Part shown: piece after piece, positions 39,384-56,639 of the stretch
Numbering within the stretch: position 1 is the stretch's first letter
How the letters are laid out: each line of letters begins with the position of its first letter
Source of the DNA: Flavobacterium ovatum
Lineage (GTDB): Bacteria; Bacteroidota; Bacteroidia; Flavobacteriales; Flavobacteriaceae
Assembly (NCBI RefSeq): GCF_040703125.1
Contig: NZ_CP160035.1
Location: 2,197,001 to 2,261,000 of the forward strand
DNA: 64,000 bases
Reading direction: 5' to 3'
Position numbers and translations under genes: made by a program
The notes under the pieces: generated by a model
Told to the model about the DNA's origin: nothing
The model's database searches: none
What the model saw: only the letters and a program-made list of their open reading frames with translations

Positions 39384-40391
39384 TTACGAAGTTCCGTTTC
39401 CGAAAGCAACAAATAGTATTCCAACCACCATACAAGCCAGTCCAAAATAGAGGAAATTTCTAGCTTTACCAGAGGCGTTAATCCATTCTTTAGTTACGAT
39501 TCCGCTCATGATGGCAGTAACCACACAAGAGGTGTTGAAGATGGCATAACCAACCGTATTTCCGCTATTTCCAAGTTTGAAAGCTGCGAAAGCAAACAAA
39601 GCAGAAGCTGCGTAATGAAAAACGGCCATTACCAAAATCAAGAAAAAGTTTTTGCCAAAAGAAGGTGTTTTGAAGTCGTTCCAAGCTTTTTTGGCAGACA
39701 ATTGCCATACAAAATAAGCAGTCATAACCAAACCACCACTGATGAAGATTGGGAACATAACAGCTACGGCAGTAATCCAATCGGCGTTTCCTTGTGCTTG
39801 ACAAGCATCATGTAAGTACGGGCGACCCACTGCATTGGCATAGCTGAAACCAGTTGCCAATAAACCACCAATAACAGCGATAAGGATTCCGGTTGTCATT
39901 GATTTAGAATCTGTACTTTCTTCTTTTTTCTCAGCGCTTTCTCTAGCGTATCCTGCTTTTCCGTTGGCGAAAATTCCAATCAAAACAATGAATAATCCGA
40001 TAAGGATTAAAGTTAATTTGTTGGCAGGAGGAAGGTCTTCTACAATAAATGGAAGTAGAGAACCGACCAAAATCACGGTTCCGATAAATAACGAAAATCC
40101 TAATGAAAGACCGATGTAGTTGATGGCTTTACTCCACATCATTACTCCGATTCCCCATAGGAAACTCGCCAATCCCATTTTGATTAAAATATCTGTTGGC
40201 ATTTCGCTAAAAATGGTCGAAAAACCATCAATTAAAGTAACCGATGCGATGATAGGCACAACGAACATGGTTAGTAAAAAGAATAAACTCCAAGTATTCT
40301 CGTATTTGAAATCTTTGGTGAATTTTTCTGGCAGTGCGTATAAGCCGAGCATCAAGCCTGCAAATATGGCTAATAATATTCCTTCGATCAT
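39384..40391 (-). CDS. RhaT-like sugar:proton symporter
   Basis: A 335-residue inner-membrane protein with about ten hydrophobic segments and one charged cytoplasmic loop (about 150-168, KAGYARESAEKKEESTDSK). The opening GILLAIFAGLMLGLYALPEKF and the internal GLLATGFSYANAVG and FNTSCVVTAIMSGIVTKEW motifs resemble the L-rhamnose-proton symporter (RhaT) branch of the drug/metabolite transporter superfamily. It is last in the L-AHG operon, so the most economical substrate is L-AHG, L-AHG-related acids or galactose (inference). RhaT transports a deoxy-L-hexose. Confidence 0.82.
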   Translation of the reverse strand: MIEGILLAIFAGLMLGLYALPEKFTKDFKYENTWSLFFLLTMFVVPIIASVTLIDGFSTIFSEMPTDILIKMGLASFLWGIGVMMWSKAINYIGLSLGFSLFIGTVILVGSLLPFIVEDLPPANKLTLILIGLFIVLIGIFANGKAGYARESAEKKEESTDSKSMTTGILIAVIGGLLATGFSYANAVGRPYLHDACQAQGNADWITAVAVMFPIFISGGLVMTAYFVWQLSAKKAWNDFKTPSFGKNFFLILVMAVFHYAASALFAFAAFKLGNSGNTVGYAIFNTSCVVTAIMSGIVTKEWINASGKARNFLYFGLACMVVGILFVAFGNGTS

Positions 40392-40433
40392 AATTTTTGT
40401 ATTGTGTGGTGGTTAATTAATTTTTTTTGTTGA

Positions 40434-41480
40434 CTAGAAAGATAGTTTGAAAACAGTTTCACTTTCGAATGTTTCTCCTGCTTTTGTGATGCAGTTTGGA
40501 GCATTTTCCATATTGATTCCGTTTGGATAACGATGCGTTTCACAACAGAAAGCACGGTACTTACCAAATTTCTCTCCTGTTTCCCTCACAATGGCATCCG
40601 AAGTATATTTTCCGGTGTAGAATAACATACCAGGTTCTGAACTACTGATTTCTAGTTTGCGACCGTTTGAAGGGCAATTGATTTCGGCTACTTTTTCTAA
40701 TTCGAAATTGTTTTTATCGAAAATATAGTAGTGCTCAAAACCGTCATTCATTTTAGTATGAACCTCTTTGATAGTTTGAGTAGTTCTCAAATCATCTTGT
40801 TGTCCATCAAGGTTGACGATTTCGCCTGTTGCGGCTCCAGTGTCATCCATGGCTAGTTTTTTGCCAGCATGCACTTGAACCGAATGGCTCTCGATAGAAT
40901 CTGAAAATCCAGATAGGTTAAAATAGGTGTGATTTGTCAATGAAAGGGGAGTGTCAGCATCAGAATTGGCTTGGTATTTAATGCTCAATTCGTTGGCATT
41001 ATTTAAGCTAAACCAAACTTGAACTACCACATTTCCTGGGAAACCTTCCTCAAGGTGATTGCTTAGTAATGACATTTTTACTACTGACGCAGCTTCAGTT
41101 TGGATAGTTTCGGCATGCCATATTTTTTTATCATATCCAACAACACCTCCGTGTAAATTATTAGCTCCACAGTTAGCTGCTAATGCGTATTCTTTTCCGT
41201 TAAGACTGAATTTGGAATTTTTTATTTGCGAAGAATAACGTCCAACGATGGATCCAAAATAAGGAGCGTTGGATGTATAGCTTTCAGAAAAATAGTTATC
41301 GAAATTTTCAAATCCACATACTAATTCATCTCTTGTTCCATCTTGATTAGGAACAGAGATTGAAGTTATTGTAGCACCATAATTCATGATTTTTACGGTC
41401 ATACCGTTATCATTTGTTAAGGTGAATAAATCAATTTCTTGATTATTATGGGTTGCAAAATTGCTTTTGGTTGCTTGCAT
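40434..41480 (-). CDS. galM: Aldose 1-epimerase (galactose mutarotase)
   Basis: A 348-residue galactose-mutarotase-like protein. Conserved landmarks are NYGATITSISVPNQDG, the GRYSSQI and NNLHGG segment (substrate His), the second His in LTNHTYFNLSG, and the base Glu in the C-terminal ETHRYPNGINMENAPN. It interconverts alpha and beta galactose or a related sugar; galactose is half of agarose, which fits the operon. No signal peptide was seen, so it is cytoplasmic. Confidence 0.93.
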   Translation of the reverse strand: MQATKSNFATHNNQEIDLFTLTNDNGMTVKIMNYGATITSISVPNQDGTRDELVCGFENFDNYFSESYTSNAPYFGSIVGRYSSQIKNSKFSLNGKEYALAANCGANNLHGGVVGYDKKIWHAETIQTEAASVVKMSLLSNHLEEGFPGNVVVQVWFSLNNANELSIKYQANSDADTPLSLTNHTYFNLSGFSDSIESHSVQVHAGKKLAMDDTGAATGEIVNLDGQQDDLRTTQTIKEVHTKMNDGFEHYYIFDKNNFELEKVAEINCPSNGRKLEISSSEPGMLFYTGKYTSDAIVRETGEKFGKYRAFCCETHRYPNGINMENAPNCITKAGETFESETVFKLSF

Positions 41481-41507
41481 TGTGGTTGTTTTTTGGTGTT
41501 AATAGAC

Positions 41508-42602
41508 TTAGTTTTGTTCGAAAGGCGCTAATTTATTCCAATCGAATATTACTCCAGTACCAGGATAATCAGGAGCTACAGCTCTATGATTTTCGACCAC
41601 TAAAGGACGAGTGGTGTACTCATCAATTGGGAAACTATGCACTTCTAACCATCCTGAATTGGGTTGTGCCGAAACCAAACTTACGTGTAGCTCTTGCATA
41701 CCGTGAGAACAAGCAGGAATATTATGTTTGTCTGCTAATCGTGCTGCTGCCAACCATCCTGTAATTCCGCCACAATTGGAAGCATCAGGTTGGATAAATG
41801 ATAATTTGGCTTGGTCAAAAGCGTACTCAAATTCGTGAATCGTATGTAAGTTTTCACCCATTGCCAATGGAAAACCGGTTTGGTCAACAATTTCGCCATA
41901 TCCTTTGTAATCGTCTGGAATAATTGGCTCTTCAAACCAAGTAATATTTTGGTCTTTGAAACCTTCGATAGCACGAATGGCTTTTTCTTTCGACATTGAA
42001 TAATTGGCATCTACCATAAAAGTAACTTCTGGACCAACAAATTCACGTACGGCTCTGATACGTTCTAAATCTTCTTCAAGATTTTCACGACCAATTTTGA
42101 TTTTCACAGCTGTGAAACCTCTTTCCATGTAACCTTTCATGTTGTTCAAAAGCTTTTCGATAGGAAACATCAAGTCGATTCCGCCACAATATGCTTTACA
42201 GGTATTTCCTTGTCCACCAGCCATTTTCCATAACGGTAAGCCAGCTTTTTTACATTTTATATCCCAAAGGGCAATATCGATCGTCGAAATAGCAAAAGAA
42301 GCAATTCCGCCACGACCTACGTAATGTACATGCCATTCCATGAAATCGTAGATTCCGTCAATGTCTGTGCCGTCTTTCCCAACTAGAACGGAAGCAAAAT
42401 CATGCTCCACCATAGCCTTTATGGCATGACCACCTTTTCCACCTGTGTAGGTATATCCAGTTCCTTCCGATCCATCTTCAAGAGTGATCGTCGTAGTAAT
42501 TAATTCAAAATGAGAATGATCACCGTGTTTGGCATCATTTAATATTTCGGGTAAAGGCACTTTAAACAATTGCACTTTTACATTTTTAATAGCAGTATTC
42601 AT
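41508..42602 (-). CDS. 3,6-anhydro-L-galactonate cycloisomerase (enolase superfamily)
   Basis: A 364-residue mandelate racemase/muconate lactonising-type enzyme. The catalytic pair Lys167/Lys169 (VKIKIG), metal ligands Asp198 (MVDANYS), Glu224 (WFEEP) and Glu250 (MGENLHT), and His300 ([11 protein letters not shown]) are all present. The sequence closely matches my memory of bacterial anhydrogalactonate cycloisomerases, including [16 protein letters not shown] near the N-terminus and the conserved [10 protein letters not shown] segment. These open the anhydro ring of 3,6-anhydro-L-galactonate to 2-keto-3-deoxy-L-galactonate. The adjacent dehydrogenase and the GH117 gene support this over other acid-sugar dehydratases. 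Confidence 0.88.
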
Positions 42603-42629
42603 GTTTGTCTATTTAAATTTTTTAAACTT

Positions 42630-44279
42630 TTATTTCTTTTTAGATTTCAGATTTCGAATAATAAGAATCGTATCTGCTTCTCCACGCCAAGGTTGCCAAG
42701 GCCAAAAATTATCTTTTATTTTTTCGTATTTTCTTTCTTCCGAAAATTCACCCGTATAGGTATTGAACCATTGCTGTGTAGCATTTGCACTAGAAAAATC
42801 CTTGTTTATTAGGCCATCAAACATAATAGTAAAATTCTCCTTAGGCATAAACAGCATAATAATACCCTCTTTTTCATTGGTTAAATTATAACCGCTTCCA
42901 TTATTATTAGGTGACGGTTTGAAGTTTTCAATATTGAAAGTATCGTATAATTTTCGCATATGCGAAAAATAATCAAAACGCGGTTTGTAAACGCCTTCGG
43001 GTTGTTCAAAAGGATTGTGAATTATGGCATTCCAAGAAGTTCCTTGCCAATAATAGGTACTGTACGCACCTGCAAAAAAGCACATGTAATTTCGTCTCAA
43101 ACAAGATTCGGCATTGGTATATGCGCCAGGAAAAACCTTGTAAGGTGCTTCTTCGTAACCGCCGTGTTCGATGTTGAAAATAGGTTTGTTGGGGAAATCA
43201 GTACGGGCATCTATCATGTGCTGATAGAGTGTGTGTCTCCAGTTTTGAGTCGAAATAAAATCAACTTCATCGGGATGATTTCTGCAAAAACCATAATCAT
43301 GTACAGAGATTAGCCTTTGGTATCCATCTAGTTTTTTGGTGCGAGCGATACGTTCAGATATGTATTCATTGGTCGCTCTGCCATAATGCAAAGCCTCTTT
43401 GGATACATCCCAAATCATATTCGGGAAAGCTTGGTAGCGTTTGATCACATAATCGTAATACCTATTGTCTTCTGGAGAATTCATTTCTGGCCATGCGACT
43501 TTTTTGTTCCAAACATAAATCATCAAATGACTCACCAATTCTTTATCGTGCATCGAAGCAATTACTTTGTCAAAATGATCAAAAAATGCAACATTGAGCG
43601 AACTAAAATCGGGTTTCGAATTCGAGCCTAAAAAAGGAAACATCTTTTCGCTTCCGCCGTATTCATGTTCTGGATGTTGAGCTAATAAAGGATCTTTGGG
43701 CCATGAAACATCATAAGTGTACAGATTCATTACAATTTGACTAAAACCATTTTGAAGAATCGTTTCTAGCAATTGATTGGTTTTGGATAGTTCTTTCTGA
43801 CCGTAATCAAGAGCAAATAACCAATCGCATTCAAAAGCCAAATTGCTGTAATGTTTGCCATCTTGGTAGAAAAAATGCTGCGGATTTTCCTTAGAAGTAG
43901 TTATACCTCCATGACGGTCTTTTTTAGTATTTTTAAGAATCGAAATAGTACCTTTTTTACCCGACAATTCTTTTATATCACCAGTAATAGTAAAGTTCTT
44001 AATTCCTTCAGAGGCACTTGAATAGCGAAATACCCAAGTGTTATTTCCGTTAAAAAACAAGGGGACTTTTTGCGATTCTCCATTAGCATTTACAAGAGCA
44101 AATACATTTTTATCAAAAGGAGCTTCGACTTTGTTTTTCAAATGAAAAACAAGATCATTTACTTCCCATTGTGGAATGGTAATCAAAGTGTTGGCTTTGG
44201 GATTGTCCCATTTTTTTATTTGTGCTTTCGAAAATGAAAAAGCGCAACAAACAAAGAGTAAAATGATTTTGTTTTTCAT
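42630..44279 (-). CDS. Putative secreted glycoside hydrolase (DUF5060 / DUF4038-type)
   Basis: A 549-residue exported protein with signal peptide ending FSKAQ. Residues about 25-115 look like a beta-sandwich DUF5060 domain, followed by a TIM-barrel-like DUF4038-type domain. Candidate catalytic glutamates are Glu295 in IWDVSKEALHYG (acid/base position at the end of a strand) and Glu371 in IFNIEHGGYEE (nucleophile position). A small beta domain ends the protein. Related proteins are annotated as apiosidase-like or putative collagen-binding, neither of which fits agar. Position inside the L-AHG operon suggests an exo-acting role on an agar- or porphyran-derived oligosaccharide (inference). Confidence 0.75.
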   Translation of the reverse strand: MKNKIILLFVCCAFSFSKAQIKKWDNPKANTLITIPQWEVNDLVFHLKNKVEAPFDKNVFALVNANGESQKVPLFFNGNNTWVFRYSSASEGIKNFTITGDIKELSGKKGTISILKNTKKDRHGGITTSKENPQHFFYQDGKHYSNLAFECDWLFALDYGQKELSKTNQLLETILQNGFSQIVMNLYTYDVSWPKDPLLAQHPEHEYGGSEKMFPFLGSNSKPDFSSLNVAFFDHFDKVIASMHDKELVSHLMIYVWNKKVAWPEMNSPEDNRYYDYVIKRYQAFPNMIWDVSKEALHYGRATNEYISERIARTKKLDGYQRLISVHDYGFCRNHPDEVDFISTQNWRHTLYQHMIDARTDFPNKPIFNIEHGGYEEAPYKVFPGAYTNAESCLRRNYMCFFAGAYSTYYWQGTSWNAIIHNPFEQPEGVYKPRFDYFSHMRKLYDTFNIENFKPSPNNNGSGYNLTNEKEGIIMLFMPKENFTIMFDGLINKDFSSANATQQWFNTYTGEFSEERKYEKIKDNFWPWQPWRGEADTILIIRNLKSKKK

Positions 44280-44293: not shown

Positions 44294-45748
44294 TTAAGCT
44301 TTATGTCTAATGTAGAAAGTTTTCTTTTCTAAATATTGTTCAAAACCATATTTACCATCTTCACCACCAGAACCAGATAATTTGTATCCGTTATGAAAAC
44401 CTTGGTGTTGCTCACCATGACCACGATTTACATATATTTCTCCGTATTCCAATTCGTCATTACATTTCATGATAGTACTCATGTCATTGGTGAAAACCAT
44501 TGCAGCCAAACCATATTCGCAATCATTGGCAAAACCAATCACTTCTTCAAAAGTTTTGAATTTAAGTACTGGTAATATTGGACCAAAAGACTCTTCATGA
44601 ACAATTGTCATATCTTGTGTTACATTGGTCAAAATAGTTGGTTCAAACCAATATCCTTTTTCAAATCCAGGACCTGTTGGTTTGTTTCCTCCAGTTGCAA
44701 TTGTTGCACCTTCTTTTACACTTACGGCTACCAAATGCTCCATCGCTTTTAATTCGGCGGCGTTAACCTTTGGTCCCATATCTGTATCTTCCAACATTGG
44801 GTCACCTACTTTTAATGCTTTTACTTTTGGAATAAATTTTTCCATGAAAACATCATAAATATCTTCGTGTAAGTACATACGTTCGTTACAAGTACACACT
44901 TGACCACAGTTGTCAAAACGAGAATGCAAAGCAGCATCTACAGCAGCGTCAATATCAGCGTCTGCAAAAACGATAAAAGGGGCTTTTCCACCTAATTCCA
45001 ATTGTACGTGCGTTAAGTTTTCGGCAGCATTACGAGCAATATCTTGACCTACAGGAGTAGAACCTGTCATTGTAACCATTTTGGTTATTGGACTTTTTAC
45101 CAAAGCATTCCCCATAGCTCTACCAGGACCGGTAAGGATATTGATAACTCCAGCAGGAATTCCAACTTTGTTCGCTATGTTTCCTAATTCTAAAGTAGAT
45201 AATGGCGTTTCGGATGTTGGTTTGATTACAATACTATTTCCCGCAATTAAAGCTGGTCCTAGTTTACGTGCTGCTAGTGCAAATGGAAAGTTCCAAGCAG
45301 TAATCGCTACAATTACGCCACGAGGCACTTTTTGAATCCAAATTTGCTCGTTTGCATTGTCTGAAGGGATAATGTCTCCTTCAATTCTACGCGCACCTTC
45401 GCAAGCATATTCGATAAATGACGAAGCTACAGCAACTTCAAAACGAGCAACTTTTAGTAATTTACCTTGTTCTTTTACGATTAATTGCGCTAAATATTCA
45501 GAGTTAGCTTTAATTTCGTTAGAGAATTTATACATTAGATCAGCTCTTTCTCTAGCTGGTTTCTTTTTCCATTCTTTTTGTGCTTTATCCGCATGAGCTA
45601 ATGTTTCAAGAGCTTCTTCAGCCGTTCCATTTTGCACTCTTGCCACAATCTCTTCAGTACAAGGACTTAAAACATCAATTGTATCACCAGAAGTAGAAGT
45701 TCTCCACTCGCCGTTTATAAATAATTGGTATTCTTTAATTTCTGCCAT
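44294..45748 (-). CDS. 3,6-anhydro-L-galactose dehydrogenase (aldehyde dehydrogenase family)
   Basis: A 484-residue NAD(P)-dependent aldehyde dehydrogenase close to the lactaldehyde dehydrogenase (AldA) group. The cofactor segment TAWNFPFALAARKLGPAL, Glu251 in LELGG and the catalytic Cys285 in CGQVC are present; the end reads NRGHGEQHQGFHNGYKLSG. In agar degraders such enzymes oxidise 3,6-anhydro-L-galactose to 3,6-anhydrogalactonate, the substrate of the cycloisomerase encoded two genes away. A lactaldehyde role is possible from sequence alone, but no fucose or rhamnose genes are nearby. Confidence 0.85.
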   Translation of the reverse strand: MAEIKEYQLFINGEWRTSTSGDTIDVLSPCTEEIVARVQNGTAEEALETLAHADKAQKEWKKKPARERADLMYKFSNEIKANSEYLAQLIVKEQGKLLKVARFEVAVASSFIEYACEGARRIEGDIIPSDNANEQIWIQKVPRGVIVAITAWNFPFALAARKLGPALIAGNSIVIKPTSETPLSTLELGNIANKVGIPAGVINILTGPGRAMGNALVKSPITKMVTMTGSTPVGQDIARNAAENLTHVQLELGGKAPFIVFADADIDAAVDAALHSRFDNCGQVCTCNERMYLHEDIYDVFMEKFIPKVKALKVGDPMLEDTDMGPKVNAAELKAMEHLVAVSVKEGATIATGGNKPTGPGFEKGYWFEPTILTNVTQDMTIVHEESFGPILPVLKFKTFEEVIGFANDCEYGLAAMVFTNDMSTIMKCNDELEYGEIYVNRGHGEQHQGFHNGYKLSGSGGEDGKYGFEQYLEKKTFYIRHKA

Positions 45749-45763: not shown

Positions 45764-48298
45764 TTATTTTTTATTTTTAAATCCTCTTGCTATTACAGTA
45801 TCGGTTTCACTTTCATATTCTTCACCATTTTCACGCGTTAATTTATCGTAGAATTGGTTGTAATTTGAATATTTATAGATTCCGTTTCTTTTTCTAATTT
45901 CGGCACCCATTTCTTTGAATTCTTTGGCTGCTTGGTCATGGTCTCCAATCAAAAATTGATATTTATTGGTTGAAATAACCACACCATTTTGATCTTTCAA
46001 TTCTAATTTGACATAAAAATTAGATGTCACTTTTTTAAGATTATCTGTTTTTATATCAAAGAATTTTTGGGAACTGTTTTCGCCAACTTTAGAAACTTCA
46101 AAAGATCCTTTTTCGATGGTTTTTCCTTTGTCATTTTCTATTGTGAAATTGGCAACACAATTGTTGTATTCTTTGTAGAAATCATTCACGATCCAAATTT
46201 GACCTTGAAAAGTTTCGTCGTTGTGCCATCTTCTTTTAGCAAAATCCAAATTGATTAAAAGTGGTTGATAGGCCGTTTTTACAAATTCGTACGAACGTTT
46301 TGTCTTTTGGTAATTATCTACGATTCCCCATTTCATATCGGGCCAGTAGGTAATAAAGTGACAAAGTGCAACACCACTATTTTTGGGTTTGTTACGTCTA
46401 AAATGTTCTATTCCTAATTGAAAAATAATCCCTTGAGAATCTTGTGTAGCATCTACAAATTCTTCTAATGAACCTGTTTTTTCGCTGCCAAAAGCATCAA
46501 AATTTTGTGCTCGCAAACGGTCCAAATCTGCCCAGTGATGTCCCCAACTTGGTCCCGGAGGCCAAATTTCATTCGCAGGAATGAATTTCTTCAAACTTTC
46601 GATATTGGGAACAGAGGTGATTGCAAATTCAGGTACAATCGGAAAATCTATTTTTTTGTACCAATCTTCCATAGGCAAATGCCCCATTCCGTAGAAATAA
46701 GCAAGTGCATGAATGGCTTCTTTTGGTTTATATCCTGCTTCTTGCGAAGGTTCATCGGTCATAGGAGAATCGGGAACGTAGGGTAAATCTACTTCTGCTT
46801 GCAATGCTTTTCCAAGACGCTCCAAGAACATTCTAGTAAATGCAGGATCGGCAGAACGCAACATCATTTCTTCGCCACCTTCCATCATAATTAAGGAGGG
46901 GTTGTTGCGTCGTTCTCTAATTACGGCAACTCCTTCGGCAATTGTGGTCGCTATAAATTCCTCATCTCTAGCCAAATTCCCAGTTCCTAGTGGAATAATA
47001 TCATTCCAAACCGTAATTCCAGCTTCGCTACACAATTCGTAAAAAATAGGTAACTCAGAGGGGTGCCATCCAAATATTCGAATATTATTCATGTTTGCTT
47101 CTTTGGCAAGCTGAATTAATTTTCGGTATTTTTCGTCAGACGTACGACCGGTAAAAATGTCTGGAGGTCCACCCCAACAAGCCGATCGGATGTATATTTT
47201 TTTACCATTAATGAGCGTAGTTCTAGGAAAACTCACTTCATCTCTAGTAAAACCAGGATTCCATTCCATTTTTACTTCACGAATACCAAAAGTAGTTTCT
47301 TTGTAATCGTGGTTGATTTTGTTTTCTGTCAAGGACAGCTTATTGATGTACAAATTGGGTTTTCCTAAATCCCAAGGCCACCATAGTTGTGCATTTTTTA
47401 TAAAAATGTCTTTTTTGATTGTTTGTTTTCCGGGGGCAATCGTCTCGGTAAATTCTGTTGTGATTACTTCAGATTCAAAGTTTTTGCCTTGAATTGTCGA
47501 AGTAAAAGTCATTTGTTTAGGTTGCGAATTTGTATTTTCGACTTCAACCTCTAGCGTTACTTTCGCATTGTTATTGTCCTCGATTTTTGGTCGTAGGTAA
47601 ACATCTTTAATTCTTGTTTTTCCAGTATAAACCATTTTTATTGGTCTATAAATTCCAAACGGAATCAAATCTCTCCAATAATCGCCAAACCAAGGCGTTT
47701 TTCTACCTGCAACTTTGGCGTTGACTTGTGGGGGAGGAGCCAATCGAATCATTAACATATTAGTACTGGCTAAGTTTTTTTTGCTGCTGCGAATGTATTT
47801 ATTTACATCGAATGAAAAACGTGAAAAAGCACCTTCGTGACTTCCTAAGTGATTACCGTTCAACCAAATATCGCACGCATAATCAATTCCGTCAAAATCA
47901 ATTCGAACCAATTGATCTTTTAAATCTTGAGTAACATTGAATTGCAAGGCATACCACCATTCGTAGTGCATTACCCATTGTGCTTTTACGCTATTACGTC
48001 CAAAGTAAGGATCTTCGATAGCACCTATTTTCCATAAGTCAGTGTACACATCTCCTGGTACTTGTGCAGAATTCCACACTAGTGTTTCAATATCTTCTGG
48101 TGGTAATTGGTGTAATCCTGCCTTGACACCTTCGCCAGGCAACATCATCTTCATTTTCCATTTAAACCCACTCAAATCTTGTGATAACTGGCTGTTGTCT
48201 TTATGAGAAACTTCAGACCCGGGTTGCGCCAGGACTGAAGTTGTCATAAAAAATAGTATGCTTAAAGCTATAAAGGCTATTCTTTGTAGTAATATCAT
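45764..48298 (-). CDS. Family 2 glycoside hydrolase, beta-mannosidase/exo-glucosaminidase-like, atypical acid/base motif
   Basis: An 844-residue exported enzyme with signal peptide ending SVLAQ. The galactose-binding-like N-terminal domain (about 45-225), immunoglobulin-like domain (about 230-340) and TIM barrel (about 345-690) follow GH2 order; the tail is a further beta domain. The acid/base strand reads NPSLIMMEGGEEMM, so Glu477 is in place but the nearly invariant Asn before it is Glu476. The nucleophile is Glu557 in VPEFAITSVP. This variation recalls the exo-beta-glucosaminidase subfamily. In an agar locus the substrate may be a modified galactoside. Confidence 0.85.
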   Translation of the reverse strand: MILLQRIAFIALSILFFMTTSVLAQPGSEVSHKDNSQLSQDLSGFKWKMKMMLPGEGVKAGLHQLPPEDIETLVWNSAQVPGDVYTDLWKIGAIEDPYFGRNSVKAQWVMHYEWWYALQFNVTQDLKDQLVRIDFDGIDYACDIWLNGNHLGSHEGAFSRFSFDVNKYIRSSKKNLASTNMLMIRLAPPPQVNAKVAGRKTPWFGDYWRDLIPFGIYRPIKMVYTGKTRIKDVYLRPKIEDNNNAKVTLEVEVENTNSQPKQMTFTSTIQGKNFESEVITTEFTETIAPGKQTIKKDIFIKNAQLWWPWDLGKPNLYINKLSLTENKINHDYKETTFGIREVKMEWNPGFTRDEVSFPRTTLINGKKIYIRSACWGGPPDIFTGRTSDEKYRKLIQLAKEANMNNIRIFGWHPSELPIFYELCSEAGITVWNDIIPLGTGNLARDEEFIATTIAEGVAVIRERRNNPSLIMMEGGEEMMLRSADPAFTRMFLERLGKALQAEVDLPYVPDSPMTDEPSQEAGYKPKEAIHALAYFYGMGHLPMEDWYKKIDFPIVPEFAITSVPNIESLKKFIPANEIWPPGPSWGHHWADLDRLRAQNFDAFGSEKTGSLEEFVDATQDSQGIIFQLGIEHFRRNKPKNSGVALCHFITYWPDMKWGIVDNYQKTKRSYEFVKTAYQPLLINLDFAKRRWHNDETFQGQIWIVNDFYKEYNNCVANFTIENDKGKTIEKGSFEVSKVGENSSQKFFDIKTDNLKKVTSNFYVKLELKDQNGVVISTNKYQFLIGDHDQAAKEFKEMGAEIRKRNGIYKYSNYNQFYDKLTRENGEEYESETDTVIARGFKNKK

Positions 48299-48313: not shown

Positions 48314-49084
48314 TTATCTTCCCATCCAACCACCGTCAACAAGCATCGTAGTACCGTGCATGTAAGAAGCTGCCTCTGAACATAAGAATACTGTAGGTCC
48401 TGCAAAATCTTCAGGTTTTCCCCAACGACCTGCTGGAATTCTACCTAAGATTGAAGCCGAACGAACGGGGTCATTACGTAATGCTTCTGTATTATCGGTG
48501 TTGATATATCCAGGTGCAATTGCATTTACGTTAACCCCTTTTCCTGCCCATTCGTTAGCAAAAGCCATAGTCAATTGACCAATAGCACCTTTACTAGCTG
48601 CATAGCCAGGAACAGTTATTCCACCTTGAAAAGTCAATAATGAAGCCGTGAAAACTACCTTTCCACTTCCTCTAGCGATCATATCTCTACCAATTTCTCT
48701 AGTTAAGATAAACTGTGCATTTTGATTGACTTCAATTACTTTATCCCACATTTCATCTGGGTGTTCTGCTGCAGGAGCTCTTAAAATAGTACCTGCGTTG
48801 TTTACCAAAATATCAATTGTTGGGAAATCTTTTTTTACAGCTTCTATGAAAGCATATAATGCTTTTCTATCACTGAAATCGCAAGCGTATCCTTTGAATT
48901 TTCTACCCAATTCGGTTACTTCTTTTTCAACAGCACTTCCTTCGGTTTCTAATGATGCACTAACGCCAATAATATCAGCACCTGCTTGTGCTAATCCAAT
49001 TGCCATTGCTTTTCCTATTCCTCTTTTGCAACCTGTAACCAAGGCTACTTTTCCTTTTAAACTAAATGTATCTAAAACGCTCAT
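48314..49084 (-). CDS. SDR-family oxidoreductase (KduD-like)
   Basis: A 256-residue short-chain dehydrogenase counted from MSVLDTFSLKGKVALVTG. The upstream ATG at 49159 is rejected because the added residues come from a palindromic repeat. TGCKRGIG (17-24), NNAG (95-98), Ser148, Tyr161 and Lys165 (YAASK) form the classical set. It is close to 2-deoxy-gluconate/KDG 3- or 5-dehydrogenases (KduD). In the L-AHG pathway a KduD-like SDR can reduce 2,5-diketo-3-deoxygluconate-type intermediates to 2-keto-3-deoxygluconate, which suits this position. Confidence 0.85.
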   Translation of the reverse strand: MSVLDTFSLKGKVALVTGCKRGIGKAMAIGLAQAGADIIGVSASLETEGSAVEKEVTELGRKFKGYACDFSDRKALYAFIEAVKKDFPTIDILVNNAGTILRAPAAEHPDEMWDKVIEVNQNAQFILTREIGRDMIARGSGKVVFTASLLTFQGGITVPGYAASKGAIGQLTMAFANEWAGKGVNVNAIAPGYINTDNTEALRNDPVRSASILGRIPAGRWGKPEDFAGPTVFLCSEAASYMHGTTMLVDGGWMGR

Positions 49085-49200: not shown

Positions 49201-50217
49201 CTATAATTGACAGTCCATCAATACTTTCAATCCTTCTGGGTTTTTGTCAATGTTTTCAAAAACTTGTTGGATGTTTGATAGTGGCTGTACATCTGTAATC
49301 ATTTGTTCGAAAGGCAATTCGTTTGCTGTAATTAATTCGATTGCTTTTTCGTAATCTTCTTTTTCGTAAACACGAGCACCGATTAAGCTTAATTCTTTCC
49401 AGAAAAATTTGAATAAATCCACTGGTTTTTTCTCTCCGTGTATGGCTACCATTAAGATTCTACCTCTAATACCTGCTACTTCACACATAATGTCAAGTGC
49501 TGGTTGAACACCTGCTACTTCAAAAACAACATCGGCTTTACGACCTTCTGTTTTTCCTTTTACATATTCAACTAAGTCAATTTTGATAGGGTTTACAGCA
49601 TCAAAACCTAATTCCTTAGCTTTTGCAATACGGTTTTCGTTTACTTCAGAGATGATGACCTGTGCTCCAGCATCTTTGGCAACCATAGCTACTAATAAAC
49701 CGATTGGACCACCACCTAATACCACAGCAGTTTCTCCTTTTACCAAGCCACTACGACGTACATCGTGAGTTGCAACAGAAAGCGGCTCAATTAAAGCAGC
49801 TAGTTTTAAGTTGGTATTGTCTTTTAATTTGTGAAGTGTAAAAGCTGGAACATTCCAGTATTCTTGCATAGCACCTGGGCTATCGATTCCGATGAATTTT
49901 AATTCCTCGCAAATGTGATTGAATCCTTTATCAGATGCTTTTGCTTTGCGGTCATCCAAAGGGCGGACAACAACTTTGTCTCCAACAGCATATCCTGTAA
50001 CGCCTTCACCTACAGCATCAATCGTGCCAGACATTTCGTGTCCAATAGTTTCTGGAATGCTTACACGCTTGTCCATCATTCCGTGGTAGATATGCACGTC
50101 AGTTCCACATACACCTACGTAGGCTACTTTGATTCGTACTTCGCCATTTGCTGGATTTTCAATTTCTCTGTTAATTACAGTGAAGGTTTTATTCCCTTCA
50201 TAAATAGTTGCTTTCAT
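49201..50217 (-). CDS. Zinc-binding alcohol/sorbitol dehydrogenase-like enzyme
   Basis: A 338-residue medium-chain dehydrogenase of the threonine/sorbitol dehydrogenase group. Catalytic zinc ligands Cys37 (VCGTDVH) and His60/Glu61 (GHEMSG) are present, and the Rossmann motif GGGPIGLLVA sits near 166-175. The lobe that normally holds the four-cysteine structural zinc has the Cys residues missing (KAKASDKGFNHICEE). First gene of the eight-gene operon. It fits the step that oxidises C5 of 2-keto-3-deoxy-L-galactonate before the SDR reduces it with opposite stereochemistry (inference). Confidence 0.88.
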   Translation of the reverse strand: MKATIYEGNKTFTVINREIENPANGEVRIKVAYVGVCGTDVHIYHGMMDKRVSIPETIGHEMSGTIDAVGEGVTGYAVGDKVVVRPLDDRKAKASDKGFNHICEELKFIGIDSPGAMQEYWNVPAFTLHKLKDNTNLKLAALIEPLSVATHDVRRSGLVKGETAVVLGGGPIGLLVAMVAKDAGAQVIISEVNENRIAKAKELGFDAVNPIKIDLVEYVKGKTEGRKADVVFEVAGVQPALDIMCEVAGIRGRILMVAIHGEKKPVDLFKFFWKELSLIGARVYEKEDYEKAIELITANELPFEQMITDVQPLSNIQQVFENIDKNPEGLKVLMDCQL

Positions 50218-50224: not shown

Positions 50225-50264
50225 TTTGTTTCAAATAGTAAACTTGTTTCTTATTTGAACAAAT
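50225..50264. promoter_or_regulatory. Palindrome at the L-AHG operon promoter, possible operator
   Basis: ATTTGTTTCAAATA and TATTTGAACAAAT are complementary except for one extra base, flanking GTAAACTTGTTTC. The palindrome overlaps the predicted -7 box and start site, a repressor-like location. Confidence 0.5.
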
Positions 50265-50267
50265 ATA
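50260..50267 (-). promoter_or_regulatory. Candidate -7 element of the L-AHG operon
   Basis: The minus strand reads TATATTTG (TAnnTTTG) about 43 bases upstream of the zinc dehydrogenase ATG. No clear -33 was found, which would suit an activated or repressor-controlled promoter. Confidence 0.5.
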
Positions 50268-50316
50268 ATACTTATGAACGAAAGTAACTTACTTTAAAAG
50301 TGATTTTTTATTCACA

Positions 50317-50334
50317 TTTGAAACAAGTTTCGTT
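50317..50334. promoter_or_regulatory. KdgR-like box, candidate IclR operator
   Basis: TTTGAAACAAGTTTCGTT contains GAAAC-AA-GTTTC, the inverted arrangement typical of sites bound by IclR-family KdgR in enterobacteria. It lies between the iclR-type gene and the operon it probably controls. Confidence 0.5.
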
Positions 50335-50403: not shown

Positions 50404-51195
50404 TTACCTTTCGATATAACCAAGTTTAGTAGATATTTCTAAAGCATACTTAGCGATTATCTTTCCTTTTTCCTCAAATTCCGAATGGGGTAATCGACCA
50501 TGCGGAGCTGTAATCCAAAGACAGGCAACAGGTGTACCTTGCTCATTAAAAACAGGAGCTCCAATACAATGGATTCCTTGAATATCTTCACCGTTATCAA
50601 TTGCATATCCTAATTCTCGAACGGTTTTTAATTGTTCTTTAAATTCTTTTTTGGAAGTAATGGTATTCTTGGTGAATTTTTCAAATTTAACCGAACTCAA
50701 AATGGCATCTACTTCTTCGTCTGGAAGAAAGGCTAAAATTGATTTTCCACCAACAGAACTGTGCAAATGGAAACGCGTTCCCAATTCAACAAAAAGTTTT
50801 ACAGGATAGGAGGAGGAGACTTGTTCTAAGATAGTACCGCTATTACCAAGAACTACGCCCAGCATTACTGATTCCTTCAACTCGTCACGTAATGCTCTCA
50901 TGATATCAATCGATAATTCGACAATACTTTGCTCATTCATTGAAGAAATTCCCAAGGTTAACATCTTTCTCGAAAGTGTTATTTTTTTGGTGGTTTCGTT
51001 CTTTTGAAGATAGTTTTTAAAAATCAAAGTATTGGTTATACGAAAGGCACTAGATTTGGTTACGTCCAAAGTCTGAAGGATTTCAGACAAAGTAAGTCCT
51101 TTTGGGTGTATTGCTAATAATTCTATGATTTGTAATCCTCTTTCTAAATTTGGAACGTTATAGTTTGATTTTAAATCTTCTTTTTCTTGAGTCAT
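50404..51195 (-). CDS. IclR-family transcriptional regulator (KdgR-like)
   Basis: A 263-residue regulator: an N-terminal winged helix (about 14-75, NLERGLQIIELLAIHPKGLT with SEILQTLDVTKSSAFRITNTL) and a C-terminal effector domain (about 85-260) with SSVGGKSILAFLP and CIGAPVFNEQGTPVACLWITAP. IclR proteins such as KdgR bind sugar-acid metabolites, often 2-keto-3-deoxygluconate, which is the expected end product of the neighbouring operon. It lies between that operon and the GH16 gene, and is likely a repressor of the operon (inference). It seems to have its own promoter. Confidence 0.92.
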   Translation of the reverse strand: MTQEKEDLKSNYNVPNLERGLQIIELLAIHPKGLTLSEILQTLDVTKSSAFRITNTLIFKNYLQKNETTKKITLSRKMLTLGISSMNEQSIVELSIDIMRALRDELKESVMLGVVLGNSGTILEQVSSSYPVKLFVELGTRFHLHSSVGGKSILAFLPDEEVDAILSSVKFEKFTKNTITSKKEFKEQLKTVRELGYAIDNGEDIQGIHCIGAPVFNEQGTPVACLWITAPHGRLPHSEFEEKGKIIAKYALEISTKLGYIER

Positions 51196-51299: not shown

Positions 51300-52499
51300 C
51301 TATTCAGGCTTATAGACTCTAATCCAGTCCACACGCATAGTTGATCGAGCATCATCCAACACGGATGGATCAGTAAAATAATTTATGCCTTGTGATTGTC
51401 TCCAGGGTTGGGATGCGGCCGAAATAATTAAATACATATCCTTGGTAAGTCCAGTTCCACCAGCATAATTATTAGGGTCAATTTGGTTGGTTGGCGTTGT
51501 TCTTACTAGTACACCATCTACATAATATTTTAATGTAAAAGGATCTAACCATAATACTCCATAATTATGGTAATCGTTTGCCCATTGTGTTCCCTTGCCA
51601 TCAGCATAATAGGTTTCCAAACCAGATGGCTGGTAATCCTGAAATGGTGTTCTTATGAAGACATGATGACTTAAGTGTAAACGTTTGGAGTAGTAATCAT
51701 TCGTTTTATCGCCATAAGCTTCTAGATTGTCAATTTCCTGAGTTGAGTCTTCGCTGAGCATCCAAACAGCTGAAGCTAATGAAGATTCGCTAATTTTCAC
51801 TCGTGCTTCCATATACATTGGATAGCCGACTTTAGTTTTAGAAGTAACTACTCCTGTTCGAATTATATCTCCAGTTGATTTTTTTTCGATGGTAGCTTTG
51901 TAGACTAATTCGCCACCAGTAATGGTTGATTGAGAAGCAGAATATACAGTTGGAAGAGCTCCTGTCCATCCATTGAAGAAACGGTCTTGCCAGTTGGTGG
52001 TAAAATCGGCTGTTTTTCCATCATAATTAAACTCATTGGAGAAAACAGGTTGAATAACCCAGCTTTTATTGTTTCCAGCACTTGGTAGAAAACTAACTTC
52101 GCTTGGTTTTTTGGCAGTTGTCAGTTGTTTTTGATCACCATAAAAAGTTACGGAACCAGCTACAAAATAGGCTTTTAGGTAATAGATTTGGTTTTCTTTT
52201 AATCCTGTCAAAGTGAGATCAAATATATTGGAAGTACTAGTAGTTATTTTTTTATTGGTTGCTGTAGTTGGGTTGGTGGTTTCTCCCCAGCAGATTCCTC
52301 TTTCGGTAATTGTTAAATTGTCATTTCCTAAAGTGATGGTTCCTCCCGTTTCAATTTCAGAATATAAAGTTGCGCCTACAGGAGTCTTGGTGATAACGGA
52401 AGTAGCTTTGGGAGTCGGCGCTGGTGCTTCGTCTTTTGTACATGCAGTCGCTATGACAATAGAAAAAGTAATGAACATTAGTGTTTTGAAAAATTTCAT
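51300..52499 (-). CDS. GH16 family beta-agarase/porphyranase-type endo-enzyme, lipoprotein
   Basis: A 399-residue surface lipoprotein, lipid Cys at 20 (IATACTKDE). Residues about 32-130 form a fibronectin/Ig-like module (ERGICWGETTNPT). The catalytic beta-jelly roll follows, with the GH16 signature EIDNLE: nucleophile Glu255, Asp257 and acid/base Glu260 in SEDSTQEIDNLEAYG. The LASAVWMLSEDSTQEID context is that of agarases and porphyranases, as opposed to laminarinases. It would cut agar or porphyran endo-wise at the cell surface. A short C-terminal end (DWIRVYKPE) with no sorting domain agrees with lipid anchoring. Confidence 0.9.
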   Translation of the reverse strand: MKFFKTLMFITFSIVIATACTKDEAPAPTPKATSVITKTPVGATLYSEIETGGTITLGNDNLTITERGICWGETTNPTTATNKKITTSTSNIFDLTLTGLKENQIYYLKAYFVAGSVTFYGDQKQLTTAKKPSEVSFLPSAGNNKSWVIQPVFSNEFNYDGKTADFTTNWQDRFFNGWTGALPTVYSASQSTITGGELVYKATIEKKSTGDIIRTGVVTSKTKVGYPMYMEARVKISESSLASAVWMLSEDSTQEIDNLEAYGDKTNDYYSKRLHLSHHVFIRTPFQDYQPSGLETYYADGKGTQWANDYHNYGVLWLDPFTLKYYVDGVLVRTTPTNQIDPNNYAGGTGLTKDMYLIISAASQPWRQSQGINYFTDPSVLDDARSTMRVDWIRVYKPE

Positions 52500-52537
52500 A
52501 GTTTGGTGGTATTGGTATTAATACATATTAGTACTTA

Positions 52538-52545: not shown

Positions 52546-52577
52546 GTTTAAGTAGCTATGATTGTGATAAAAAGCAA

Positions 52578-52771: not shown

Positions 52772-52810
52772 ATTGGTGAATAATTGAATTATTCTATTTG
52801 TGCATATTCT

Positions 52811-54049
52811 CTACTTCTCTGTTTTTCCGTTTGCTGATTTTTCACCAATAGCTGTATGGGTTGTTTTTCTAGCTGATGAAAAACGCATAATACTTTGGTA
52901 GTTTCCATTGTTATATATATGAGTTAATCCCCATCTTAAAACCTCAGTTGGGTCTTTTTCATTATCTGCTGTTCTGTTTAAGCCAATTGCATGGGGTGCG
53001 TCTTTAATCGAAGCCATAATCTCAAAATTAATTCCATCTGGTGACCATTGAATGGTGTTTTTTTCTGGACCATCAGTGGTGATTAATGATGCAATTCCGC
53101 CGTTGTAAGGCCAAACGCAAATTTCGTGTCCACTATTACTTATTGGGTTATAAGGTGATTTTACGTATGGTCCAAGTGGATTGTCAGCTATAGCGACTCC
53201 ATGACGAATTTGGCGACCACCAAAAGTCATTTCTTCACCCATTTGTTCTCCTTTGTAGTACAAATAGAATTTACCTTTGTATGGTAATATACATGGATCA
53301 TGCGTTTTATGGCTGTCAAAATCTCCTTTTTTTTCTACCATAAAACGGTTGTCCGTAGTACCTTTCCAAACACCATTTTGAGCAGGTGCGATAACGGGAG
53401 CATCCAATTTTGTCCAAGGACCATTTGGCGAGTTAGACCATGCCATTCCTACTTTTTCTTGAACTCGTATGTTGTAGATTCCTTCAACAGTTTGGTAGCA
53501 TAAATAATATTTCTTATCCCATTTCATGATCTCAACTGTGAAAACAGAACGATCATCATAAGATCCTTTTTTACCTCTAGGTATTGCAATACCTTCTTCT
53601 TTCCATGTCCAACCATCTTGAGAAGTTGCGTACCAAATATCGCAACGATCCCATGGAAAAACTTTTTCATTGGCCATATCTCCACCAAATCCTTGTGTTG
53701 GACCAGTACTTTTTGTGTACCAAACATAGTATTTTCCGTTTTCTTGGATGATAGCACTAGGATCTCTTCGTACAACACCTTCTTCGTAAGCCAAATCACC
53801 TTTAAGGGGTTGTAAGTTTCCAAACTCGATAAACCATTCGTTTCCTAATTCTTTAGGCCATTTTAAGGCTCTTTTTGAAGCGGCACTTAAGTGGTTGACA
53901 TCCATAATACCTAACTTATCTTTAAGTTCGATAGCATCTTTTTTTAGTTGTTTTTCTTCCTCCATTTTGCATTTTGTTGACTGTGCAATTGCCGAGATTG
54001 GCATTGCTAGCGTTAATAATCCAAGGACGCTTTTGTTAATTATATTCAT
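52811..54049 (-). CDS. GH117 exo-alpha-1,3-(3,6-anhydro-L-galactosidase)
   Basis: A 412-residue exported five-bladed beta-propeller enzyme, signal peptide ending AIAQS. The N-terminal helical segment with LSAASKRALKW, used for domain swapping in the family, leads into GDLAYEEGVVRRDPSAII (Asp96), THDPCIL (Asp251) and SNSGHE (His308), the expected acidic and histidine catalytic positions. GH117 enzymes release 3,6-anhydro-L-galactose from the non-reducing end of neoagaro-oligosaccharides, feeding the oxidation operon. It lies 31 bases downstream of the GH2 beta-galactosidase gene. Confidence 0.93.
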   Translation of the reverse strand: MNIINKSVLGLLTLAMPISAIAQSTKCKMEEEKQLKKDAIELKDKLGIMDVNHLSAASKRALKWPKELGNEWFIEFGNLQPLKGDLAYEEGVVRRDPSAIIQENGKYYVWYTKSTGPTQGFGGDMANEKVFPWDRCDIWYATSQDGWTWKEEGIAIPRGKKGSYDDRSVFTVEIMKWDKKYYLCYQTVEGIYNIRVQEKVGMAWSNSPNGPWTKLDAPVIAPAQNGVWKGTTDNRFMVEKKGDFDSHKTHDPCILPYKGKFYLYYKGEQMGEEMTFGGRQIRHGVAIADNPLGPYVKSPYNPISNSGHEICVWPYNGGIASLITTDGPEKNTIQWSPDGINFEIMASIKDAPHAIGLNRTADNEKDPTEVLRWGLTHIYNNGNYQSIMRFSSARKTTHTAIGEKSANGKTEK

Positions 54050-54080
54050 AGTTGTAGTTTGATTGGTATTACAATATTAC

Positions 54081-56639
54081 TTAATTTTTATTACTTAATT
54101 TAATTTTACTAGTGAAATTAGTTTTTTCTGTGAAATTTATTTTATTATTTTCAAGAACAATTTTTTCAATTTGAACGGTAGCATCTACTTTTGCTCCTTT
54201 TTTCGATTGAACAATAAGCAAACATCTTCCTTTTGAAGTGGTTATAGTATTTGATTGAAAATCCTGAACATTATCGACTGCTCCATTATCTACTCCAAGT
54301 ATTTTTACGTTTCCATCAATCGAAAATGTGATTGTTGGATTCACTGTTTTTACTGGGTTATTGTCTTTATCAACTACTTGTGCTACGATATGTGCTACAT
54401 CATATCCATCTGCGGAAAGGCTAGTTTTGTCTGTTGTTAATTGAACACGGTAAGCTTCTGTTGGAGTAACTCTTTCCGATGAGATCGTCTTTCCTGATTT
54501 TGTACCTCTTGCAGTTAATTTTCCTGATTGAAAAGGAACGGACCATTTGTAAATATGATCGTCAAAATCGGTTAGTTTTTTCTTTCCTAATGATTTTTCA
54601 TTCAAAAATAATTCGACTTCATCACAATTCGAGTAGATTTCGACAATTGTCTTGTCTCCAGATTGGTACTCCCAATGTTCGTTGACATCATGCCAAACCC
54701 AAAGTGCATTTTCCCATCCATTTTTCTTTTTTTCTACAGGCTCTCCTGTTTGTTCATCAATTTTATAGATTGATTTATCCAGTCTTTGTGTGGCAATATA
54801 TAATTCAGGAGCATCATTCCATAATGATTTCATCATGTGGTAGGATGGTTTTTCGAATCCAGCATAATCTAATATTCCACTATCTATTCCTTTTTTAGGC
54901 CATTGTTTATTGGCTTCGCCCAAATAATCAATACCTGTCCATAAATACGTCCCCGATATAAAAGGGCGTTCCATAATGGCTTTCCATTCGTGCCATTGTG
55001 CTACGTTTTCAGTACCCATTATTGGTAATTCAGGATAGTTTTTATGTCCATAATCGTAAACTACTCTGCGGTAGCTGTAACCAATCATGTCTAATGCATC
55101 TGCATATCCTGATTCATAACTAGATGACGGAAGGATACAGTTAGCAATTACATAGCGAGTAGTGTCCATTTCTTTTGTCCACTTTGCCAGTTTTTTAGCA
55201 GTTTCACCAATATCGTATTTCTCCCTAGGTAGGGTGCGCAAGTTTTCTTGAATTTTCTCAATAGAATTAGGAGGAAGTGACCAGAAATAATTTCCGCTCC
55301 AATCCATATTATCAAAGAACCCAGTGGCTTTTGCATTTCGTTCGTATGTCCATTCAATTTCATTTCCAATACTCCATTGGATGATGCTTGGGTGGTTTCT
55401 ATGTGCTAACATGGTATTTTTTAAATCACGTTCTGCCCATTCTTGAAAATGTTCACCGTATCCGCGGGTAATGGCGTCTACTGATTGTTCTTTCATGTTT
55501 TTACGCTTGTCTTTTGGATTGTCCCATTCATCAAAAAACTCATCTTGAACCATTATTCCCATTTCGTCACAAAGCGAAATAAATTCATCTGAACCTGGAT
55601 TGTGAGAGATTCTGATTGCGTTTACTCCCGCTTCTTTTAGTTTTTCAAAGCGTCTTCTCCAAACTCCTTCTGGTACAGCAGCTCCTACAAGACCAGCGTC
55701 ATGATGCAAACAAACCCCTTTGATTTTCATGTTTTGACCATTTAGGTAAAAACCAGTATTCGCATCAAATTTGATAGTTCGGATTCCAAATTTAGTCTGA
55801 TTCTCATCGACTGTTTTTCCGTTTTGTACAATTTTAAATTGTGCCGTGTACATACTAGGACTCACTACATCCCATAATTTTGGATTTTTTACAGTGGTAT
55901 CGATGTTGAATTTTGTTTCTTCCTTGGAACTTACTTTTCCTTTTGTGGTTTGCTCGGCTACTTTTTTGCCTTTACCATCAAGTATTGTTGTGATGATGTC
56001 AAAAGTTTCATCCTTATCAAAGTTGTTTTTAACATTAACTTCTAAGTGAACTTTGCTTTCTTGCAAAGACACGTGTGGAGTTGTGATATAAGTTCCCCAA
56101 ATAGGAATATGTAGGTTGTTTTTGGTTACTAACTTTACATTTCTGTAAATACCAGATCCAGTGTACCAGCGGCTATCAGCATATCTTGAATGGTCTACTT
56201 TTACCTTAATTTGATTGCTGTTATTGTTTAAATAAGCACTTAAATCATAAAAAAATGGAGAATATCCGTATGGGTGTTCTCCCAATTTTTTATCATTTAG
56301 CCACAAAGTACTATTGTTATATATTCCGTCAAATAGAATATAGGTAGTTTCATTTTTGCTAGGTTTTACTTTAAAATCTTTTTTGTACCAACCAATACCT
56401 CCTAAAAGATATCCTGTTGCACCTTCTCCTTTTATAGAATCAAATGAAAAACCAACACTCCAATCATGTGGGAGGTTTACATTTTTCCAATTACTTTGAC
56501 TAGAATTTTCTAATTTGAAATTCCAATCAAAATTAAAGTCTTGAGTGTTATTTTGAGCACAAGCACAAACGGTAATTAAATTAAGAATGCCGAGCTGAAC
56601 TATTTTTTTTACGGAATATTTGGATTTTATTTTCTTCAC
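54081..56639 (-). CDS. GH2 beta-galactosidase (agarolytic type)
   Basis: An 852-residue exported enzyme; the leader ends TVCACAQN, so lipid attachment at Cys25 or Cys27 is possible. Sugar-binding, Ig-like and TIM-barrel domains are in normal order; catalytic Glu427 in SIGNEIEW and nucleophile Glu544 in [12 protein letters not shown] are clear. The tail holds DUF4982- and bacterial-Ig-like domains (about 640-830). In agar loci such enzymes remove D-galactose from agaro-oligosaccharides, alternating with GH117. It is first in a two-gene unit. Confidence 0.9.

Follow-up and report, generated by a model that had tools for sequence, protein, structure and literature searches.

The window analysed here is a 64,000-nucleotide stretch of the one-contig, 4.25-Mb genome of Flavobacterium ovatum (C1:2197001-2261000). 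Our subject is the run of genes on its minus strand from position 56639 down to 39384, which, judged from sequence, is very probably an agar-utilisation locus of the Zobellia/Paraglaciecola/Aquimarina type with a proposed route from 3,6-anhydro-L-galactose (L-AHG) to 2-keto-3-deoxygluconate (KDG). Open reading frame (ORF) calls and family matches place twelve genes here. In order of transcription they are an agarolytic glycoside hydrolase family 2 gene (GH2gal), GH117, GH16, an IclR-family regulator, a zinc-dependent dehydrogenase (ZnDH), a short-chain dehydrogenase/reductase (SDR), a beta-mannosidase-like GH2 (GH2man), the L-AHG dehydrogenase (AHGD), an apiosidase-like hydrolase (API), the cycloisomerase (ACI), galM and a RhaT-like symporter (Table 1). 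A preliminary description of this DNA had named nine of the twelve, all of them intact minus-strand ORFs with family matches, but had passed over the IclR gene, GH2man and API; these three genes and a predicted operator are what is new here. With the ORFs as called, 14-42 bases separate neighbouring genes from ZnDH to the RhaT-like gene, which fits a single eight-gene operon. The SDR ORF as called has 281 residues from a TTG codon, but its start is most likely Met26, giving 256 residues, in line with the 255 and 256 residues of the SDRs of two relatives; the ZnDH-SDR gap would then be 116 bases.

Table 1. Features of the locus and its neighbours, in window positions.
Feature	Position	Strand	Basis
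SusC/SusD pair beside locus	33800..38727	+	SusD_RagB, SusD-like_3 (Pfam) on 37111-38727; SusC by sequence and cross-matches
RhaT-like drug/metabolite transporter-type (DMT) sugar/H+ symporter, last gene of the predicted operon	39384..40391	-	Pfam RhaT 71.5 bits
Aldose 1-epimerase (galM-like)	40434..41480	-	Pfam Aldose_epim 243 bits
ACI, predicted 3,6-anhydro-L-galactonate cycloisomerase	41508..42602	-	632 bits to 5xd7
API, DUF5060 + apiosidase-like glycoside hydrolase	42630..44279	-	Pfam Apiosidase 64.6, DUF5060 31.8 bits
AHGD, predicted 3,6-anhydro-L-galactose dehydrogenase (AldA-like)	44294..45748	-	Pfam Aldedh 547 bits; 6j75 737 bits
GH2man, beta-mannosidase-like GH2	45764..48298	-	Pfam GH2 domains; 5n6u/2vqu alignment
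KduD-like SDR, predicted 2,5-diketo-3-deoxy-L-galactonate reductase yielding KDG	48314..49084	-	TIGR01832 326 bits
ZnDH, predicted 2-keto-3-deoxy-L-galactonate 5-dehydrogenase, first gene of the predicted operon	49201..50217	-	Pfam ADH_zinc_N 96 bits
Predicted operator for IclR; the palindrome overlaps the -7 box TATATTTG	50225..50268	-	Conservation with IclR gene
IclR-family regulator, predicted repressor of operon	50404..51195	-	Pfam IclR_C 140, HTH_IclR 48 bits
GH16 beta-agarase, probable lipoprotein (by eye)	51300..52499	-	249 bits to 3wz1
GH117 3,6-anhydro-alpha-L-galactosidase	52811..54049	-	719 bits to 3p2n
GH2 exo-beta-galactosidase, agarolytic type (GH2gal)	54081..56639	-	1045 bits to 5t9a
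TPR-containing protein, possible regulator, divergent neighbour	57127..58782	+	Pfam TPR_12; homologues in several AHG loci
SusC-like transporter	59146..62226 (L092:147-3227)	+	Label from sequence alone; agar link inferred
SusD-like ORF, extends beyond window end	from 62249 (L092:3250-5073)	+	Label from sequence alone

A beta-agarase, a GH117 and an agarolytic GH2 all appear, by sequence, together in the locus. GH16 matches the agarase 3wz1 far above the porphyranase 4ate (249 vs 61 bits), and the closest entry to GH2gal, titled 'Glycoside Hydrolase', is one we take to be BuGH2C. The best Protein Data Bank match of AHGD is titled only 'Aldehyde dehydrogenase A', and the case for an L-AHG locus is carried by the L-specific match of the cycloisomerase to 5xd7, presumably the structure of the ACI of Vibrio sp. 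EJY3, whose AHGD and ACI were reportedly described by Yun in 2015. That match runs over residues 1-362 at 632 bits; the next other enzyme is a putative racemase (310), with a talarate/galactarate dehydratase at 198 and DauB (5olc) at 137. On these scores, used in place of a tree, the cycloisomerase does not group with other sugar-acid dehydratases and is of the L-form, not the DauB type. It retains, as had been claimed, all of the catalytic residues: KIK (167-169), D198 (VDAN), E224 (WFEEP), E250 (GEN) and H300 (SHG), which align to identical residues of VejACI with two neighbours changed (V197 to Ile, S299 to Thr). The label 'catalytic' comes from the equivalent DauB/AtGCI residues in PMC5698469 (this and the other papers given by PMC number are cited from excerpts). 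The protein is 99.7% identical to a cycloisomerase of Flavobacterium sp. 7A. In Flammeovirga pacifica WPAGA1 (L063), the ACI match begins at contig base 1628228, the coordinate printed for AHGAC4986 in PMC6581685, where the dehydrogenase and cycloisomerase of this locus were expressed and assayed. Its best matches are 78% identical to ACI and 72% to AHGD. In that study crude AHGAD4985 and AHGAC4986 were incubated with neoagarobiose hydrolase, and AHG was consumed when the dehydrogenase was present (PMC6581685).

Conservation was assessed in relatives, the best 80 of 151 confirmed loci, 71 of which have full 10-kb flanks. Among these 71, the genes found on the same strand as ACI are ZnDH (67), SDR (64), AHGD (67), galM (62), RhaT (64) and GH117 (64), with ZnDH, SDR and AHGD present jointly in 62; the clustering of these genes with ACI is beyond chance. 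The others are more sporadic: GH2gal in 31 loci, IclR in 24, GH16 in 12 (6 on the ACI strand), GH2man in 9 and API in none. Gene distribution was also counted in 299 Flavobacteriaceae genomes, with cut-offs set after the tables had been seen. ACI matched 291 of them at E<=1e-3, and the 24 with at least 77% identity were kept. Within the genus the cycloisomerase is rare, ACI being carried by 5 of the 199 genomes sampled, and the published L-AHG pathway is seen here against that background; API is found in 3 of the 199, each of them also with ACI. An agar-degrading Flavobacterium, F. faecale, is already known (PMC9501601).

These genes suggest the following sequence of reactions. The GH16 agarase would cut agarose at the cell surface, and periplasmic GH117 and GH2 beta-galactosidase would trim the oligosaccharides to L-AHG and D-galactose. 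The RhaT-like symporter, a probable AHG importer, would take up L-AHG, which AHGD would oxidise to anhydrogalactonate and ACI would convert to 2-keto-3-deoxy-L-galactonate (L-KDGal). Since L-KDGal and KDG differ solely at C5, an oxidation followed by a reduction there suffices: ZnDH would oxidise C5, and the resulting 2,5-diketo acid would be reduced to KDG by the KduD-like SDR. By this route a seaweed-digesting Flavobacterium with the cluster should be able to break agarose down and feed its unusual sugar, 3,6-anhydro-L-galactose, into the ordinary metabolism of the cell. We infer every substrate, the direction of each oxidoreductase and the repression described below. That ZnDH and the SDR form the pair leading from L-KDGal to KDG, as the preliminary description proposed, is favoured by their company with ACI and by their fit to EC 1.1.1.389 and EC 1.1.1.127, both of which have been assigned within an agar polysaccharide utilisation locus (PUL; PMC10163077).

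By its predicted gene content the L-AHG locus is complete except for a KDG kinase and a 2-keto-3-deoxy-6-phosphogluconate (KDPG) aldolase, which had been expected to lie elsewhere and are indeed found 1.2 Mb away, in an alginate locus. Here a PfkB-family kinase (C1:1053109-1054128), the probable KDG kinase, is directly followed by a KDPG-type aldolase (L094:14144-14812; the pair spans C1:1053109-1054811) that scores 366 bits against PRK07114, over the cut-off of 275. The neighbours are two alginate-lyase-type proteins (Pfam Alginate_lyase2; Hepar_II_III_C with Alginate_lyase) and an SDR and, by sequence appearance, a GntR regulator, a major facilitator superfamily carrier and a SusC/D pair. 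If this pair finishes the KDG, a single pair of enzymes would serve both the brown- and the red-algal pathway, and a strain that has lost one gene of the alginate locus should no longer be able to use the anhydro sugar of agar. Homologues of both kinase and aldolase lie within 5 of the 80 relative loci (L056, L075, L077, L079 and L080), at 41-51% identity for the kinase and 53-72% for the aldolase, and this speaks for KDG as the product in which the route ends; a sixth locus, L076, holds homologues at only 31% and 25% identity.

Upstream of ZnDH, a 40-bp palindrome follows TATATTTG. Its consensus, TATATTTGTTTCAAATAAGAAACnAGTTTnTTATTTGAAACnAA, taken from 12 sites, is symmetric at 34 of 34 comparable positions, and we predict it to be the site of the IclR repressor. 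Across whole loci of the 80 relatives, all 27 that carry the IclR gene (at least 60% identity) also have the palindrome, and none of the 53 others does. Directly before ZnDH it was sought in 70 regions (69 of the 80 relatives with a readable ZnDH start, plus the window) at a cut-off of 28/40. Each of the 22 regions in which IclR lies immediately ahead, those of 21 relatives and of the window, contains it, at scores of 33-40 of 40 with shuffles at 26 or below. None of the 5 regions in which IclR is more distant has it, and none of the 43 that lack IclR, where the best real score was 23 and shuffles went up to 28, one of them in a region without IclR reaching the cut-off. Because the consensus was built from sites that it scores, the positive count is partly circular; this does not apply to the 0 of 53, nor to the poorly conserved flanks (pairwise identity of 0.86 in the site vs 0.40 and 0.34 in the next two upstream blocks). 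The site also follows the regulator to other positions: in five Zobellia/Pseudozobellia loci it lies shortly behind IclR instead of at ZnDH, and in L032, which lacks ZnDH in its flanks, it stands 11 bases before AHGD. In L043 the ORF next to the palindrome looks AraC-type. We note that the N-terminus of this ORF (Zobellia russellii, L043:3298-4008) resembles the start of ZnDH (34% over 58 residues) and is perhaps a fused remnant.

The Bacteroidota -7 box has the form TAnnTTTG, and this motif overlaps the palindrome in 19 of 22 regions as aligned; in the window it lies one base further on. A genome search with the 30-base core, allowing at most 3 mismatches, returned one place and its reversed control none, while the short operator pattern did little better genome-wide than its reversed control (10 places vs 7). 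In the window, GAAACWWGTTTC alone is at chance, with 52 of 100 shuffles giving two matches. A second exact GAAACAAGTTTC stands upstream of ZnDH at 50320-50331; it is possibly a weaker operator, and alone is not above chance. The IclR repressor probably keeps the eight-gene operon off through the palindrome over the -7 box until an intermediate appears, and would be released when an acid of the pathway binds; the predicted switch is a directly testable and reusable candidate sensor for agar sugars. Shared descent of the regulator and its site within the Flavobacteriaceae could inflate the match between them. No report of an IclR regulator for an agar pathway stood among the matches listed by our literature search.

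With gene identity (by sequence), conservation, the location of the kinase and aldolase, and the operator-IclR linkage established, several points weigh against the pathway built upon them. The KduD, RhaT, KdgR and BhcR models all score below their curated cut-offs for the locus proteins: the SDR reaches 326.2 against the TIGR01832 kduD equivalog (cut-off 338.85, thus 13 bits under), the symporter 310.6 of 369 against the NCBIfam RhaT L-rhamnose symporter equivalog, which still leaves a sugar-symporter role possible, and the IclR protein 133.8 of 275 (KdgR) and 183.9 of 350 (BhcR). The distant kinase likewise reaches no curated equivalog cut-off, scoring at best 422 of 700 against a fusion model of KHG/KDPG aldolase and kinase, and its role is read from context. 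A homologue of it occurs in 24 of 24 ACI genomes at E<=1e-89, and some match in 199 of 299 at E<=1e-3; a kinase so common in the family makes this co-occurrence weak evidence. Nine of the 71 full-flank loci (L021, L031, L032, L042, L062, L064, L069, L070 and L076) lack ZnDH, SDR or AHGD at the cut-offs used. In the Flammeovirga assay the mass of 177 fits anhydrogalactonate and KDGal alike (PMC6581685), so the cycloisomerase step was not separated there and is weakly shown, and ZGAL_4655, the GH2 beside the Zobellia cluster, is not agar-induced (PMC5613140). For Vibrio EJY3 the belief is that L-KDGal passes straight into central metabolism (PMC5943477), and the word diketo has 0 occurrences in the 2024 review PMC11219438, so that what becomes of L-KDGal is not agreed for every bacterium. 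Alternatively, L-KDGal might be cleaved directly by an aldolase or phosphorylated, with ZnDH and the SDR doing something else, as the Vibrio account, the alternative routes in PMC11219438 and the shortfall of the SDR against KduD would allow. We think this improbable, given that ZnDH and the SDR stay with ACI in most loci, that kinase and aldolase homologues are found inside five of them, and that a Pseudoalteromonas atlantica pathway (reported in PMC5943477) and the scheme for Aquimarina ERC-38 (PMC10163077) speak for the KDG route.

A carrageenan locus serving D-anhydrogalactose would use the same enzyme classes, an aldehyde dehydrogenase, an enolase-superfamily cycloisomerase and a DMT transporter (PMC5698469). 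That reading was rejected on the ACI scores given above (137 bits to DauB vs 632 to the L-enzyme) and is exceedingly improbable; GH117 and a GH16 agarase lie in the cluster, and the genome already has a separate DauA/B/C/D-like set beside GH127 (C1:3724236-3731710, L095), whose DauB-like protein is 29% identical to ACI. GH127 excepted, the genes of that set are labelled by their order and by their resemblance to the cluster described in PMC5698469; none of the NCBIfam models was matched by the kinase-like member. As for the palindrome, it could instead control translation as a hairpin formed by the RNA of the 5' leader: its RNA folds at -7.8 kcal/mol (z -3.15), and in 22 of 22 regions the start codon follows it after 5-13 bases. 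We regard this as unlikely, since its presence tracks the IclR gene even where the first gene differs (L032 and the five Zobellia/Pseudozobellia loci) and since it overlaps the TAnnTTTG box in most aligned regions.

Two hydrolases, GH2man and API, are embedded among the pathway genes. GH2man (844 residues, signal peptide by eye) is closest to the GH2 beta-mannosidases (5n6u, 2je8 group), at 224 bits only. The profile alignment to 5n6u/2vqu gives E477 as the acid and E557 as the nucleophile, both positions being Glu as in those enzymes, but E476 replaces the preceding Asn (GGEE for GNNE). The GH2 acid motif is Asn-Glu, as is visible in 2vqu; it is not found in GH2man, which has Glu-Glu in 15 of 15 homologues, E476, E477 and E557 all being invariant. 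API (549 residues, signal peptide by eye) exceeds the Pfam Apiosidase cut-off (64.6 vs 26.5), and all 16 sequences compared keep E295, the candidate acid, and E371, the candidate nucleophile. Its profile relatives, which we take to carry the GH140 label, are distant: 4n0r at 123 bits and the DUF4038 proteins 3kzs/5msy at a weak 29, with 3kzs having Asp in the alignment where API has its putative acid Glu. Predicted structures were left unused (mean pLDDT confidence of 31.8 for API from two alignment rows, and 52.4 for GH2man from nine).

Both follow the cycloisomerase closely. GH2man matched 184 of the 299 genomes, of which 12 were kept (at least 46% identity), and all 12 carry ACI. API matched 22, of which 12 were kept (at least 44%) and ten weak or partial matches dropped, including a 46-residue piece in one ACI genome (G236); 11 of the 12 carry ACI. 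Eight of the 24 ACI genomes lack both. The hypergeometric association with ACI is 8e-13 for API and 3e-15 for GH2man, values that overstate certainty because the genomes come from one family and are not independent. In 15 other places API has GH3 (scanned; L123, L124, L133), GH29 (scanned; L127) or GH117-like ORFs (6 of 15) as neighbours, and many nearby ORFs resemble sulfatases by appearance, unscanned. In L168 and L169, where GH2man is 82% identical, a GH3-cluster ORF and a sulfatase-looking ORF stand at the place of API between ACI and AHGD. GH2man and API are probably exo-hydrolases that trim decorated agar oligosaccharides, a candidate role, and the two families show that the present picture of decorated-agar trimming is incomplete. 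Among the literature matches listed, DUF5060 brought up one report, on a Lactobacillus, and none of those on porphyran, GH117 and PULs mentioned GH140. A second API copy, 56% identical, is found at C1:2712551-2714098 (L133) with GH3 and ThuA/3-keto-disaccharide-hydrolase-type genes within 6 kb, and a third copy of GH2man (L179:9161-11083; C1:3204660-3206582) is split into three ORFs and is likely a pseudogene.

GH2man paralogues in L175, L177, L178 (this genome, C1:3459000-3478900) and L181 lie next to a whole or partial module of coenzyme A (CoA) type. Its members are a pair of class III CoA-transferases, an enoyl-CoA hydratase, a dehydrogenase of the AldA type with 43-44% identity to AHGD, and a RhaT-like carrier, the last in L175, L178 and L181 and not in L177 as fetched. 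L178 itself has no CoA-transferase ORF; the pair of this genome lies at C1:3410407-3412703, about 55 kb from the L178 paralogue. CoA-transferase matched 32 of the 299 genomes, and 16 were kept (best E<=1e-100), 9 with ACI and 9 with GH2man; the module as agar-specific was rejected, as 7 of the 16 carriers lack ACI. A cytochrome P450 and a pyridine-nucleotide reductase also adjoin the L178 paralogue (L178:12398-15284), gene types described for 6-O-methyl-galactose demethylation (PMC10033563). It would be a long shot to propose that GH2man founds an agar-dedicated Glu-Glu group of GH2 enzymes releasing a modified sugar, perhaps an O-methylated anhydrogalactose closed to the cycloisomerase, whose acid the CoA module degrades as a thioester. 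We know of no CoA-thioester route for any algal sugar.

The locus can be set beside known systems. The orthologous, agar-induced cluster ZGAL_4657-4669 of Zobellia galactanivorans, with its neighbour ZGAL_4655, shares GH117, L-AHG catabolic genes, a SusC/D-type pair and two regulators (PMC5613140). It differs in holding a sulfatase, a gene not seen in 39384-56639, and in the Zobellia loci fetched GH117 precedes ZnDH and neither API nor GH2man is found within the flanks at 40% identity or more. The agar PULs of Aquimarina sp. ERC-38 (PUL-a) and Paraglaciecola hydrolytica S66T share AHGD, ACI, the L-KDGal 5-dehydrogenase and the diketo reductase, but have a different hydrolase set, and the excerpts mention neither API nor GH2man (PMC10163077, PMC5943477). 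For ERC-38 the L-AHG dehydrogenase, cycloisomerase, EC 1.1.1.389 and EC 1.1.1.127 are listed with the kinase and aldolase 'in another location' (PMC10163077), as appears to be the case here, and PMC5943477 gives the same scheme while considering the Vibrio route different. Vibrio sp. EJY3 shares the first two steps, but is a Gammaproteobacterium in which the later steps are described differently (PMC5943477). An architecture with kinase and aldolase elsewhere is thus already published (PMC10163077, PMC5943477), and the pathway put forward in the preliminary description is right but not new.

The galactan region continues beyond the end of the window (L092, L093; C1:2256000-2295999), where a domain scan finds an FAD oxidoreductase, a GH2 and a GH43-type protein, and where further, unscanned ORFs resemble by appearance SusC/D, a LacI-type regulator, a transporter, GH117 and sulfatases.

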